From an uncultured Amylibacter sp. (GTDB lineage Bacteria; Pseudomonadota; Alphaproteobacteria; Rhodobacterales; Rhodobacteraceae), in contig CAJJAY010000026.1 of NCBI GenBank assembly GCA_905182285.1, positions 59,386-123,385 of the forward strand: DNA of 64,000 bases. The letters are read 5' to 3'. Under the pieces are notes generated by a model. It ran no database searches. It had not been told where the DNA came from and saw nothing but the letters and a program-made list of their open reading frames with translations. The position numbers and the translations under genes were made by a program. The stretch's first letter is position 1. Each line of letters begins with the position of its first letter. This document shows positions 6,287 to 42,424 of this stretch, one piece after another.

Positions 6287-6310
6287 TAGCTCTCTCCCTT
6301 ATATAAAAAA

Positions 6311-6334
6311 ACGAGGGCCAAATTTGGCCCTCGT
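6311..6334 (-). terminator. perfect 12-bp hairpin between dctP and dctQ (intra-operon attenuator/terminator)
   Basis: ACGAGGGCCAAATTTGGCCCTCGT is a perfect palindrome; flanking A-run on + strand gives a U-run on the minus transcript. Confidence 0.75.
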
Positions 6335-6350
6335 AATATTTATAAATTAA

Positions 6351-7445
6351 TTAACCGAAGTAATGCTTATATGCCAGTTTATAATCAGGTTGATTCAAAT
6401 TCAGGTAACCCATAACATTTTCAGCATATACTTTTTGACTTTCAATCACTTTAGCAAAGAAAGCATCTTCACCTGAAATTCTGTCAACTACAATATCCCA
6501 AGCATCTAACTGAGCTTGCATAACACTATCTGGTGTTCTGTGAACATTGACACCCTGCTCATTCTGCAATGTTTGCAAATCATCAGCATAGCGCTTTGTA
6601 TTATGCCAATAGAAGTTTGAATTTTCTGCTTCTGATGCATATTTCAATATAGCCTGCAATTCTGCAGGTAATTTATCATATTTCTTCTTATTGAATGAAA
6701 CTTCGAAAAATTCCTGAGATTGGTGGAAAGATGCGAGATGGTAATCTTTTGATACATCCTGCATACCGAAATCACGATCAGATGTAGGGTTATTAAATTC
6801 TGCAGCATCAATTAGCCCTGACTTCATTGCTGGCTGAATTTCACCACCTGGAAGCTGAACGACTGACATTCCCATTTCTAGTAAAACATCTGCAGCCAAA
6901 CCAACTGTACGATATTTCAATCCATCCATTTGAGCAGCACTTTTTATTTCTTCTTTAAACCAGCCAAGTGGTTGTGCTGGCATTGGTGAGTTAAAGAATG
7001 AAACAACATTCAAACCTAGATCACCCATCAATTCATCAAATAATTCTTGTCCGCCACCGTAGTTTACCCAACCAAGTACTTCTTGAGAAGACCAACCAAA
7101 GCATGGGCCAGTTCCAAATAATGATGCTGATTTTGACTTTGAGTACCAATATGCTGGAACATAGTGACATGCATCTAATACGCCGCGGTGTACCGCATCT
7201 TGCATTTGTGATGTTTTAACAACCGAATTAACAGCTAATAAATCTATTTTGAGTGCACTGCCTGCCATAGCGTGAACACGGTCAACATACGACTGTGCAT
7301 TTTCTAAAAATATTCCACCGCCCCAAGCAGCTTGCATTTTCAATGTTGTTGCGTGACTACCAGCGATTGCTGGCGTTGCAAGAGTAGCTGCTCCTGCGAC
7401 TGCGGTTCCACGCAAAAATTTTCTACGGTTTAATTTATCTGTCAT
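6351..7445 (-). CDS. dctP: TRAP transporter substrate-binding protein (DctP family, Tat-type signal)
   Basis: MTDKLNRRKFLRGTAVAGAATLATPAIA twin-arginine signal; GGEIQPAMKSGLIDAAEFNNP; adjacent dctQM. Confidence 0.9.
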   Translation of the reverse strand: MTDKLNRRKFLRGTAVAGAATLATPAIAGSHATTLKMQAAWGGGIFLENAQSYVDRVHAMAGSALKIDLLAVNSVVKTSQMQDAVHRGVLDACHYVPAYWYSKSKSASLFGTGPCFGWSSQEVLGWVNYGGGQELFDELMGDLGLNVVSFFNSPMPAQPLGWFKEEIKSAAQMDGLKYRTVGLAADVLLEMGMSVVQLPGGEIQPAMKSGLIDAAEFNNPTSDRDFGMQDVSKDYHLASFHQSQEFFEVSFNKKKYDKLPAELQAILKYASEAENSNFYWHNTKRYADDLQTLQNEQGVNVHRTPDSVMQAQLDAWDIVVDRISGEDAFFAKVIESQKVYAENVMGYLNLNQPDYKLAYKHYFG

Positions 7446-7990
7446 GTTCCCCTCCCAAGGATGTGGATTATAATACTAGTTGTAAGGTTTATTTTAAAAC
7501 TAGAAAAATTGTTAACAGTGTGATTCAGAATCAATGACGGATTTATAAAACATCAATTAAAGACCATGGATTAACAATATTGAGGTTAGCATATGTTTGT
7601 AATTGGTCAACTAAATTTACCAAATATTACAAAACTCCGTGAGCCAAATAATATAAAAAATCAAACCACGAGATGCAAATATACAATATATTTATGAATA
7701 TCAAAAAATAGATAAAGATCGTTAAATTTCAATAATTTATATATTTCAAAAAAAAAACATTAACCTGTTTTTTGGTTTACAACTTGTAAGCCATGGGAGA
7801 AATTTTACTAAAATTTATAATTGTTCGCGATTTGGAAACAATCTATTTTCAATTTAAAAATTCATTTATCTAGATAAATAATAATTTACTTATCATTACG
7901 CAACATTCAAAACTAAGATTCTCTTGCTGATCGATCTAAGCTATGGCAATAAGCACAAACCATTTTATTTTTTCAAAGTTGATATTACAA

Positions 7991-38248: not shown

Positions 38249-38943
38249 TGAAACTAACTTTTAACTCTGTTTGTTTTTCACAAAATAGTGAAACTTTACT
38301 TGGTCCTATTGATTTAAAATTAAATATAAGAGGTATTACAAATGTTCTAGGATATAATGGTGCAGGTAAATCATTATTCTTAGAAATATGTCATGCAATG
38401 ATTGAGCCAACATCTGGCAATGTATATTGGGGCACAAATTCAGCTTATTCTTCAAGACATTTAAGAGGTTTTATATTTCAACATCGAGTAACTCTTTTTA
38501 GATCTGTGAAGAAAAATATTGCACTACCTATGCAAACTGCTGGGTGGACAAAAAAAAGAATAGAAAGCCGCCTTGAAGAACTTTTATGTATGGCTAATTT
38601 GGAAGCAAAGGGAAATGATCCAGCATCTACCCTTTCTGGTGGGGAAGTACAACGAATGGCACTTGTTAGGGCATTGGCAACTTATCCTAAAACAATAATA
38701 ATGGACGAGCCAACTTCAAGTTTAGATCCAAGCGCTACAACTGAATTTGAAAAATTAATATCAAAAAGTGCAAATTCTGGTATAAAATTCCTTTGGGCTA
38801 CGCATAATGTTTCCCAGGCAAAGCGCTTTGCTGATGACATAATTTTTATAGCAGGTGGTAAGGTTGATGAAAGCAATGAAGCAGATAAATTTTTTAAAAA
38901 TCCACGATCTATAAAAGCAAAAAATTACATCAAAGGCATATAA
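38248..38943 (+). CDS. tupC: tungstate ABC transporter ATP-binding protein
   Basis: GYNGAGKS Walker A; LSGGEVQRMALVRAL; IIMDEPTSSLDP; TAATG overlap with tupB. Confidence 0.88.
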   Translation: MKLTFNSVCFSQNSETLLGPIDLKLNIRGITNVLGYNGAGKSLFLEICHAMIEPTSGNVYWGTNSAYSSRHLRGFIFQHRVTLFRSVKKNIALPMQTAGWTKKRIESRLEELLCMANLEAKGNDPASTLSGGEVQRMALVRALATYPKTIIMDEPTSSLDPSATTEFEKLISKSANSGIKFLWATHNVSQAKRFADDIIFIAGGKVDESNEADKFFKNPRSIKAKNYIKGI

Positions 38944-39770
38944 TGAAATTTATTTTTTTATTAATTCTTTTCTTTGCCAATTCTGTAAAAGCAGAAAAAC
39001 AAGAAATAATTTTGTCATCCACAACTTCAACACAAAACTCTGGTCTTTATGATTATATTTTGCCGATGTTTACTCAAGATACGGGTATTTTGGTAAAGGT
39101 AGTTGCAGTAGGAACAGGCCAAGCCATTAGAATAGCGCGCAATGGCGATGCAGATGCTTTATTAGTTCATCATAGACCATCTGAAGATCTTTTTATGAAA
39201 GAAAATTTTGGAACTTATCGTTATGATATTATGTACAACGACTTTGTACTAATTGGCCCAAAAAATACAAATGCTACATTTAAAAATCTTGCAGATTTTT
39301 TTATTGAGGCAGGAAAATTTGGTACATTTAGATTTATTTCAAGAGGTGACGATAGCGGTACACATAAAAAAGAAATAGAACTATGGAATGCTTTTACATA
39401 TAGAAATCCAAGTGGAGAATGGTATATCGAAATTGGATCTGGTATGGGTGCAGCTTTAAATATGGCATCTGCAACTAATTCATATACATTGAGCGATCGA
39501 GGAACTTGGTTATCTTTCAAAAATAAAGGTGATTTAGAAATTAAATGGGCTGGCGACCTTATTATGCAGAATCCTTATGGACTGATACTAGTTAACCCTG
39601 ATGTCTTCCCACATATTAAATCAACACAAGCCAAAATATTTGCCAACTGGTTAATATCTTCAAAAGGTCAAAAAGCGATTGGAGATTTCAAAGTTGATGG
39701 CAAACAATTATTTTGTCCAAATGCAGATAAAACAAATACAAAAAGCCTTTTAGCATGCCCCGCTAACTAA
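38943..39770 (+). CDS. tupA: tungstate-binding periplasmic protein
   Basis: Signal peptide; SSTTSTQNSGLYDYILPMF...VGTGQAIRIARNGDADALLVHHRPSE. Confidence 0.88.
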   Translation: MKFIFLLILFFANSVKAEKQEIILSSTTSTQNSGLYDYILPMFTQDTGILVKVVAVGTGQAIRIARNGDADALLVHHRPSEDLFMKENFGTYRYDIMYNDFVLIGPKNTNATFKNLADFFIEAGKFGTFRFISRGDDSGTHKKEIELWNAFTYRNPSGEWYIEIGSGMGAALNMASATNSYTLSDRGTWLSFKNKGDLEIKWAGDLIMQNPYGLILVNPDVFPHIKSTQAKIFANWLISSKGQKAIGDFKVDGKQLFCPNADKTNTKSLLACPAN

Positions 39771-39856
39771 TTTGGCAATTAGGGATATGCACCAAATGCA
39801 TATCGGCTTTGCAGTATAAACACTTTTAAAATTTAGAAAATTAGCTATTTAAAGTA

Positions 39857-39990
39857 TATGAGATGAAAAACTCATCGGCCACCTCCTCCCGGTCGAGAAA
39901 TTTAAATGGCACCAAATTCTCCCAATGCTGGGGCCAAAAAAAAAGAACGGTAATATGCTACCTCCTCCCAGCATGTTGTCGTTTTTTTTT
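39857..39990 (+). ncRNA. candidate 'cuckoo'/CcsR-like anti-Shine-Dalgarno small RNA
   Basis: Hairpin TCGGCC[ACCTCCTCCC]GGTCGA (39875-39896); hairpin ...ACGGTAATATGCT[ACCTCCTCCC]AGCATGTTGTCGT (39939-39990), stem extends through A-run/T-run and ends in U-tract; 5' end is an estimate. Confidence 0.72.
39939..39990 (+). terminator. terminator hairpin with ACCTCCTCCC loop (potentially bidirectional)
   Basis: ~21-bp stem with G·U pairs, A-run on 5' side, T9 on 3' side; lies between convergent tupA and uvrD. Confidence 0.8.
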
Positions 39991-40012
39991 GGATAAATTT
40001 TATGAAATATTT

Positions 40013-42424
40013 TCAAAAAGACTCATCATCAATATGAGATACAAAATTGGCTACAACTTTCTTTGCTCCACCTGAATCAAATACTATAGATAGCTTATCA
40101 CCTTCAATACCAATAACAGTTCCGTTTCCAAGCTTTACGTGCATTACTCGATCAGAAATTGAATACTTTTTTGAGACTTTAGCATCGATGGTAATGCCTT
40201 GAGTGTTGTCAGATTTATTTAGAAACCTTTGGGATGTTCTAGCCTGCATTCGTTTCCACCCAGGTGAATTATATGCATCAGCTTTTGCAGCGCGTTCAGG
40301 AAGGTCACTTTCAAATTCAATTTCTTGAGATGACGAGCCACCAGCATATAAACCTGGTGGGGTGAGTACTTCTATATTTTTTGGCGGTAATTCATCTATA
40401 AATCTTGATGGCATCGACGATTGCCATTGCCCATAAACTCTACGATTAGCAGCAAATGAAATAGTGCAAATGGCTTCAGAACGAGTAATTCCGACGTAGG
40501 CTAATCGGCGTTCTTCTTCTAATCCCTTCTGGCCAGATTCATCCATTGATCTTTGTGATGGAAATAACCCATCTTCCCAGCCAGGTAGAAATACTATTGG
40601 AAACTCAAGACCTTTAGCGCCGTGCAGCGTCATAATGGAAACTTTTTCTACAGAGTCAGAAACATCATTTTCCATTATTAAACTCACATGCTCAAGAAAA
40701 CCTTGGACATTTTCAAATCCTTCCAACGCTTTAACAAGCTCTTTTAAGTTTTCCAGCCTACCTGCTGCTTCTGGTGTTTTATCATTTTGCCAAAAATCTG
40801 TGTACCCACTTTCTTCTAATATTATTTGTGCAATCTCAACGTGATTAACAGCGTTTGAAACATTATCTAAGTTTTCCAAAACTTCATTTCTAGAGTTTAT
40901 CACAACATTTGAGGGTGCCAATAAATTACCCCACCGATCAAATCCATCTATTAGTTTTTTCAAAGAATTGGATGCCTTAGATGATAGTCCACCTTCATGG
41001 GCCACTAACCGAGCAGCTTCTAACATAGATACCCCGTTACTACGTGCTATTGCATTAATTTTTTGTTGAGCCTTGTCTCCAATTCCTCGCTTAGGTGTAT
41101 TAACAATACGTTCAAACGCAAGACTATCGTCTGGACTAACCGCAACCCGAAAATATGCCATGGCATCTCGTATTTCCATCCGTTCATAAAACCTTGGCCC
41201 ACCAATAACTCTGTATGGTAATCCAATACTGAGAAATCTATCCTCAAATGCGCGCATTTGGTGAGAAGCTCGAACCAATATAGCCATACTGTTTAATCCA
41301 AATGAAGAAATTCCCCGCGTTCCCCTTTGATAGCTCTCTAGCTCTTCGCCGATCCATCGAGCTTCTTCCTCACCATCCCAATGACCAATTAAACGTACCT
41401 TTTCTCCGCCTTCTTGAGCAGTCCATAGAGTTTTACCTAATCGATCTGTATTTCCAGATATTATACCAGATGCTGCTGCAAGAATATCAGGAGTAGATCT
41501 ATAGTTTTGCTCTAAACGAATAACTTTCGCACCTTCAAAATCTCTTTCAAATCGCAAAATATTCCCTACTTCTGCACCACGCCATCCATAAATTGATTGA
41601 TCGTCATCACCAACACAGCAAATATTTTTATGCTTTGCCGCCAAAAGTCTTAACCACATATATTGCGCAATATTAGTATCTTGATACTCATCAACCAAAA
41701 TATATTTAAACCAAGTTTGATATTTTTGTAAAATATCAGAATTTTTTTGAAAAATATTCACAACATGTAATAAAAGATCTCCAAAATCAGCAGCATTCAA
41801 AATTTTCAATCGATTTTGATATTGCAAATAAAATTCGGCTCCTCGACCATTAAACCCATCTTCACCAGCTGGTATGTTGTCTGGACCCCAAGCACGGTTT
41901 TTCCATGTGTCTATAAGTCCTAATAATAATCGTGGCGGCCAACGCTTTTCATCAATATTTTCAGCTCGCAATAACTGCTTTAGCAACCTTAACTGATCAT
42001 CTGTATCGAGAATTGTAAAATTTGACTTTAAACCAACCATCTCCGAATGTCGGCGTAATATTTTGACACACAAAGAATGAAATGTTCCAAGCCAAGGGAG
42101 CTCTCCGCCTAAGTTACCCAATATAGATCCAACCCGAATTTTCATTTCTCGAGCAGCTTTATTTGTAAAAGTTACAGCAAGTATCTCATTTGGCCGAGCT
42201 TCGTTCATGTTCATCAAATGAACAATTCTTGTTGTTAAGGCTTTTGTTTTACCCGTACCTGCCCCAGCCAACATTAAGACAGGTCCATTTAATGTTTCCA
42301 CAGCCGATCTTTGAGCAGAATTCAAATCATCTAAATATGGTTTAGGCCTCAACCCTATAGCTTGATGAGATAAGGGGATATTACTTGCCACTTGATTAGC
42401 TTGATTTTCGTCTCGATTATTCAT
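40013..42424 (-). CDS. uvrD: UvrD/PcrA superfamily I DNA helicase
   Basis: NGPVLMLAGAGTGKTKALTTRIVHLM; ILVDEYQDTNIAQYMWLRLLA; VGDDDQSIYGWRGAEVGNI; MTLHGAKGLEFPIVFLPGWE. Confidence 0.94.
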   Translation of the reverse strand: MNNRDENQANQVASNIPLSHQAIGLRPKPYLDDLNSAQRSAVETLNGPVLMLAGAGTGKTKALTTRIVHLMNMNEARPNEILAVTFTNKAAREMKIRVGSILGNLGGELPWLGTFHSLCVKILRRHSEMVGLKSNFTILDTDDQLRLLKQLLRAENIDEKRWPPRLLLGLIDTWKNRAWGPDNIPAGEDGFNGRGAEFYLQYQNRLKILNAADFGDLLLHVVNIFQKNSDILQKYQTWFKYILVDEYQDTNIAQYMWLRLLAAKHKNICCVGDDDQSIYGWRGAEVGNILRFERDFEGAKVIRLEQNYRSTPDILAAASGIISGNTDRLGKTLWTAQEGGEKVRLIGHWDGEEEARWIGEELESYQRGTRGISSFGLNSMAILVRASHQMRAFEDRFLSIGLPYRVIGGPRFYERMEIRDAMAYFRVAVSPDDSLAFERIVNTPKRGIGDKAQQKINAIARSNGVSMLEAARLVAHEGGLSSKASNSLKKLIDGFDRWGNLLAPSNVVINSRNEVLENLDNVSNAVNHVEIAQIILEESGYTDFWQNDKTPEAAGRLENLKELVKALEGFENVQGFLEHVSLIMENDVSDSVEKVSIMTLHGAKGLEFPIVFLPGWEDGLFPSQRSMDESGQKGLEEERRLAYVGITRSEAICTISFAANRRVYGQWQSSMPSRFIDELPPKNIEVLTPPGLYAGGSSSQEIEFESDLPERAAKADAYNSPGWKRMQARTSQRFLNKSDNTQGITIDAKVSKKYSISDRVMHVKLGNGTVIGIEGDKLSIVFDSGGAKKVVANFVSHIDDESF

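Follow-up and report, generated by a model that had tools for sequence, protein, structure and literature searches.

A predicted stand-alone cuckoo-type small RNA gene with an LsrB-type upstream box at the tupA-uvrD locus of Amylibacter

Results and Discussion

Computational analysis of a 64,000-nt stretch of DNA from an uncultured Amylibacter sp. (hereafter the window) revealed a conserved, structured small RNA (sRNA) between tupA and uvrD, a uvrD-linked synteny and upstream boxes shared with other genes. From these data we infer transcription of the RNA, binding of a regulator and pairing with targets, and we consider it probable that all of them belong to a single scheme: a trans-acting sRNA of the cuckoo class with its own promoter, which represses selected mRNAs through anti-Shine-Dalgarno (aSD) loops, as a stand-alone remnant of the uvrD-linked ccaF1-CcsR (CIN1) locus under LsrB/VtlR-like control. 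The RNA would be transcribed from its own promoter and ended by its third hairpin, and its exposed loops (two of ACCUCCUCCC and one of UUCUCCC) would pair with the Shine-Dalgarno regions of selected mRNAs, chiefly those of transporters, and thereby block their translation. The DUF1127 partner gene of the ancestral locus would now reside elsewhere, preceded by its own copy of this box, and a genome-encoded LysR protein of the LsrB/VtlR type would probably control transcription through the box at -70 to -57.

A structured RNA gene downstream of tupA

The sRNA gene was assigned to positions 39858-39990 of the forward strand (~133 nt) by a leave-one-out covariance match and by conservation in relatives, its 5' end being presumed from a -10-like element and its 3' end from a T9 tract. 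Its upstream neighbour, also present in related loci, is the gene of a tupA-like solute-binding protein (38943-39770, forward strand, PBP_like_2 domain), and its downstream neighbour, used as a synteny anchor, is the convergent uvrD helicase gene (40013-42424, reverse strand, UvrD domains). The gap between them, reported as 256 bp in the first-pass annotation of this DNA, measures 242 bp (39771-40012) by the ORFs used here; the hairpin coordinates, the twin ACCTCCTCCC loops, the middle hairpin and the T9 tract given in that annotation were all recovered from the sequence. Hairpin 1 (39875-39896, forward strand, as are the other two) consists of TCGGCC (39875-39880), the loop ACCTCCTCCC (ACCUCCUCCC as RNA; 39881-39890) and GGTCGA (39891-39896), forming a stem of 6 bp with one G-U pair and changes on both sides in relatives. 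Hairpin 2 (39907-39936) pairs TGGCACC (39907-39913) with GGGGCCA (39930-39936) with one A-G mismatch, and its loop carries a degenerate aSD copy (TTCTCCC, or UUCUCCC as RNA; 39917-39923), which in relatives reads UUCUCCC, UUCCUCCC or the full ACCUCCUCCC. Hairpin 3 (39939-39990) has a 21-bp stem (39939-39959/39970-39990) around a second ACCUCCUCCC loop (39960-39969; again ACCTCCTCCC in DNA) and ends in T9 (39982-39990) as a Rho-independent terminator; with its A-rich 5' side it could in addition stop transcription arriving from the convergent uvrD.

The motif CCTCCTCCC occurs twice in the window, both times at the sRNA (0.16 occurrences expected; two reached in 4 of 100 shuffles), and four times in the whole 1.9-Mb assembly, the other two copies being located within coding genes. 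Folded as a 143-nt RNA, the locus lies 2.7 sd below its dinucleotide shuffles (3 of 200 were as stable), most of the excess being due to hairpin 3, and the reverse strand is unremarkable (z -1.3). The minimum-energy fold of the window RNA rearranges hairpins 1 and 2 into other pairings, hairpin 1 being present in the centroid and absent from the minimum-energy structure; the RNAs of relatives fold as three hairpins. Two ORFs crossing the sRNA (55 and 70 aa) were rejected as coding candidates, their start and frame being lost in the relative G030, where the RNA structure is kept.

Searching the DNA of 100 relatives, we recovered the locus from six further genomes of the genus. The three hairpins are kept in eight other Amylibacter sequences, with stems that change by compensatory substitution and with aSD loops that are retained. 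Across six to eight distinct sequences the stems are 95-100% canonical: 95% in hairpin 1 (both-side changes at 6 of 7 pairs), 95% in hairpin 2 (5 of 7 pairs; six species, leaving out a bulged base of G002) and 100% in hairpin 3 (7 of 12 pairs). With the 3' arms swapped among species, such percentages were reached in no more than 0.15% of trials, a fraction not to be taken as a strict probability because related species are not independent. A covariance model built from eight relatives, with the window left out, matched the window at 39854-39991 with 126 bits (E 4e-32), the next match scoring 11.9 bits. Stem covariation together with this match excludes a chance origin of the hairpins, and on such comparative grounds the locus is a real RNA gene. 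The first-pass annotation had staked its proposal on both loops being preserved in relatives while the stems covary, and the nearest relatives behave accordingly, the exception being loop 3 of G002 and G007, which has drifted to TTCTTCTCCC/TTCTCTTCCC-type forms. The same model has matches in 26 of the 33 genomes of the genus. It finds a single copy in the genome of the window (assembly 84% complete), where several had been anticipated.

Synteny with uvrD-linked arrays

The position of the sRNA, 3' of tupA and facing a convergent uvrD, is shared by the window, G030, G026, G002, G007/L043, L046 and the A. ulvae type. In most of 80 sampled Rhodobacteraceae uvrD loci, 2-16 aSD hairpins follow one another downstream of uvrD, on the strand opposite to it, and the array usually lies directly behind a DUF1127 gene; the CcsR1 and ar14 matches above cut-off fall within these arrays. 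This is the arrangement described as ccaF1-CcsR, or CIN1 (PMC10253847). Tandem arrays of up to ~16 aSD hairpins beside uvrD, behind DUF1127, were observed in L088, L119 and L087, and array length varies strongly between genera. In A. ulvae and A. cionae the sRNA is followed by a DUF1127 gene and, in A. ulvae, by another aSD hairpin. The CIN1-type DUF1127 association at the uvrD-linked place is found in relatives and not in the window itself, where no DUF1127 ORF is present between tupA and uvrD; the DUF1127 genes of this assembly are on other contigs. At this locus the window species and its nearest relatives have retained the sRNA alone, with DUF1127 elsewhere in the genome, which provides a natural case of an sRNA and a DUF1127 partner that are no longer co-transcribed.

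The upstream box and its candidate regulator

An LsrB-type box, TGCA-N6-GCAT (also T-N11-A), is located at 39788-39801 of the forward strand (TGCACCAAATGCAT), at -70 to -57 of the presumed sRNA start. It exactly matches the form in the NfeR1 promoter, where the LsrB site TGCA-N6-GCAT was placed at -72 to about -57 (PMC10746234), so that by sequence the locus appears to have the LsrB-type promoter box of NfeR1. In Amylibacter genomes the box mostly stands 45-72 nt before the RNA model (a few up to ~130 nt). Of 55 Rhodobacteraceae DUF1127 loci, 45 also carry it in the 250 bp that precede the DUF1127 gene, compared with a background of 12 copies over 650 kb elsewhere in these loci (0.005 per 250 bp). 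An independently fetched set of 30 ar14 loci contained it in 27 cases, generally 5' of the hairpins. Many loci of the family (L012-L040) have another TGCA-N6-GCAT element (TGTGCA....GCAGCAT) 39-40 nt downstream of the first box, which was not seen in Amylibacter.

The segment TGCATATCGGCTTTG (39797-39811, forward strand) resembles, at 11 of 15 positions, the Brucella VtlR motif CAATGCAGCCATGCA on the other strand (motif quoted in PMC12595884; read on the other strand, TGCATGGCTGCATTG). Family versions such as TGCATGGCAGCATTG agree with the VtlR motif at 14 of 15 positions, one base from TGCATGGCTGCATTG. In Brucella, VtlR controls AbcR2 and three DUF1127 genes (PMC12595884). A search of the 1.9-Mb genome of the window species with the extended box, allowing up to two mismatches, returned only two matches: the sRNA and a detached DUF1127 gene (L129:1145-1426, reverse strand, G000:C2). 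The extended box lies 75-99 nt upstream of the start of this DUF1127 gene, which is followed by a small ORF of 57 aa. In G030, G026, G002 and G007 there are three perfect sites, before the sRNA, a DUF1127 gene and a 51-54-aa small ORF. The protein behind the third box is conserved (MTTAIMN...KARxAAELxRMGY...; L167:1588-1746, L174:845-1009, L175:551-715 and L176:1312-1467), and the incomplete genome of the window species showed no boxed gene for it.

Among the 14 LysR genes of this genome, L136 matches A. tumefaciens LsrB best (252 bits, versus 125 for the next); its product is 41% identical to LsrB overall and shares 49 of 65 residues (75%) in the DNA-binding part. The structure of A. tumefaciens LsrB is available as PDB 9HH1 (PMC11975290). 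A search of NCBIfam gave no specific model for the L136 protein, and no LysR gene was found in this genome beside trxB, where LsrB is encoded in Rhizobiales, the LsrB-like gene being located elsewhere. The box is also found 49 nt before the start of the L136 gene itself and within 200 bp upstream of 12 of its 29 orthologues in the genus (~0.013 expected for each), the other 17 having no upstream box. We infer that the L136 protein binds the box. LsrB has been described as unique to Rhizobiales (PMC11975290). Contrary to that description, one L136-type gene in 146 of 150 sampled Rhodobacteraceae argues that, judging by homology, a close LsrB relative is widespread in this family.

We lean, with moderate confidence, towards a broader hypothesis: a LysR regulator of the LsrB/VtlR type may control cuckoo RNAs and DUF1127 genes across Rhodobacteraceae as one ancient alphaproteobacterial regulon that unites NfeR1 and CcsR, split in the streamlined Amylibacter into two loci that keep the same box. 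Regulons of this type, which respond to stress, are known so far from rhizobia, Agrobacterium and Brucella; what appears to be new here is that the box computationally marks an sRNA as in such a regulon. A limited literature search, with the key cuckoo and CcsR papers outside its reach, returned no LsrB/VtlR-like link to a Rhodobacteraceae sRNA. Through the shared box the CcsR-like RNAs of Rhodobacteraceae would gain a candidate master regulator, and RNA families that have been studied separately, NfeR1 in rhizobia and CcsR in Rhodobacter, would be linked.

Transcription of the RNA

Between the box and the sRNA lies a weak promoter-like pair (CTTTTA-N16-CTATTT, 39823-39850, forward strand), whose -10 part is conserved in most relatives and whose -35 part is not CTTG. 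The first-pass annotation had noted an RpoH-like element here; its CTTTTAA-N15-CTATTT is present as written before the sRNA, and control by RpoH is not supported, as relatives show no conserved CTTG. An sRNA driven by RpoH upon heat or oxidative stress would parallel ccaF1-CcsR of R. sphaeroides, for which an RpoHI/RpoHII promoter is reported (PMC10253847). Nevertheless, the Amylibacter relatives examined lack CTTG in their -35 regions, and the conserved upstream element is the TGCA-N6-GCAT box; we consider RpoH control quite unlikely, and it was dropped as the leading idea since the -35 is not conserved. Processing of the RNA mainly from the 3' UTR of tupABC, rather than synthesis from its own promoter, would agree with the weak -35 element and with the location of the sRNA on the same strand ~88 bp after the tupA stop codon, yet it leaves aside a box and a -10-like element that are conserved at a fixed distance between tupA and the sRNA, and it strikes us as unlikely. 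Even less credit can be given to the view that only hairpin 3 matters, as a bidirectional terminator of tupABC and the convergent uvrD within an otherwise passive gap. Such a terminator would look like hairpin 3, whose strong 21-bp stem stands between convergent genes and has A-rich and T9 flanks, but hairpins 1 and 2 covary with their loops preserved, a dedicated box is conserved upstream at a fixed distance, and the same RNA precedes a DUF1127 gene in other Amylibacter; this alternative is therefore highly improbable. A separate gene with its own boxed promoter remains the preferred reading.

Predicted targets and mode of action

Target prediction by loop-duplex energies covered 56 genes of the window. 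The lowest energy was obtained for dctP (TRAP transporter solute-binding protein, 6351-7445): -17.2 kcal/mol versus a median of -4, a value equalled by 0.13% of random 50-mers. The candidate site is the Shine-Dalgarno sequence GGGAGGGG just before this gene (7449-7456, reverse strand), and the second-best target was dctQ of the same operon. In G030, G026 and G007 the GGGAGGG(G) before dctP is retained amid diverging flanks, a conservation that could simply serve translation. For NfeR1, too, the main targets are predicted to be transporter mRNAs. At none of the gene starts of the assembly is the full 9-nt loop complement GGGAGGAGG found, and any pairing would thus be incomplete; full-length complements were rejected as targets, the only two occurrences being inside coding genes. 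A search of viral contigs for the candidate target gave no match. The gap between dctP and dctQ (window 6287-6350) contains a hairpin with a T-run (gagggcc...ggccctc, T8), with equivalents in two relatives, that looks like an intra-operon attenuator or mRNA stabiliser.

The first-pass annotation had offered two modes of action, titration or mimicry of the aSD and binding to SD regions; the latter is the most likely for this cuckoo/CcsR-type sRNA. The loops contain CCUCCU, the core anti-SD, and might in principle mimic that of 16S rRNA, whose 3' end was not found in this assembly, the RNA then acting as a general decoy by titration rather than on selected mRNAs. A single-copy RNA makes a poor decoy, however, and the related NfeR1 acts through its aSD loops on defined mRNAs such as ntrB (PMC10746234), so that we regard this alternative as very unlikely. 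On the target model, pairing of the sRNA with the Shine-Dalgarno sequences of transporter mRNAs probably represses their translation.

Comparison with known RNA families and regulons

At gathering threshold, Rfam matched only tRNAs within the window. The covariance check with family models proposed in the first-pass annotation stayed below the Rfam thresholds: ar14 (RF02344) aligned over model positions 1-123 with 35.2 bits (E 2.8e-5 in the 242-bp gap; cut-off 58.8), CcsR1 (RF02791) scored 14.3 bits (gathering score 65.3), and the best ar14 score of an Amylibacter locus was 51.3 bits. An ar14-like match (E <= 0.1) was obtained in 129 of 150 Rhodobacteraceae genomes and reached the cut-off in 19 of them, which indicates that the Rfam ar14 model undersamples this family. 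With these matches and the ccaF1-CcsR cluster position, the suggestion of a lineage lacking a described copy had to be given up. Members of ar14 are defined by three hairpins that all carry CCUCCUCCC in their loops (PMC10746234). The window RNA has two exact loops and a third reading UUCUCCC, the relatives L010/L011 being exact in all three; it does show the hallmark of the cuckoo class, in which CCUCCUCCC-type loops are conserved on several hairpins whose stems have diverged. In L059 and L045 the loops have drifted from CCUCCUCCC to the shorter CCCUCCC or UUCCUCCC, with the hairpins and the upstream box remaining. Since its scores are below the thresholds of the curated families, the sRNA is filed as cuckoo-like, not as ar14 or CcsR. 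Covarying stems, preserved loops and the uvrD-linked position bear out the original proposal of a cuckoo/CcsR-type small RNA. On sequence evidence neither the class of this sRNA nor its kind of locus is new; here the sRNA occurs uncoupled from DUF1127, and it extends the class to streamlined marine bacteria.

With ar14/NfeR1 of Sinorhizobium meliloti the sRNA shares an architecture of three hairpins that carry aSD loops on variable stems and end with the terminator hairpin, an alignment over the full length of the model, and an LsrB-type TGCA-N6-GCAT box ~60-70 nt before the start (PMC10746234). It differs in its degenerate middle loop, a score below gathering, another gene neighbourhood, and a single copy here versus six of ar14 in S. 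meliloti (PMC7143759). With CcsR1-4/CcaF1 of Rhodobacter sphaeroides (CIN1) it has in common the aSD hairpin loops and the uvrD-linked position; unlike CcsR1-4, it is one RNA rather than a tandem array, with no DUF1127 gene at the locus and no evident RpoH promoter. The predicted regulon resembles that of LsrB/VtlR in Rhizobiales (AbcR, NfeR1 and DUF1127 genes) in having the same kind of box before sRNA and DUF1127 genes, and differs from it in the lack of trxB linkage, in the box that also precedes the LysR gene itself, and in its occurrence in another order, Rhodobacterales.
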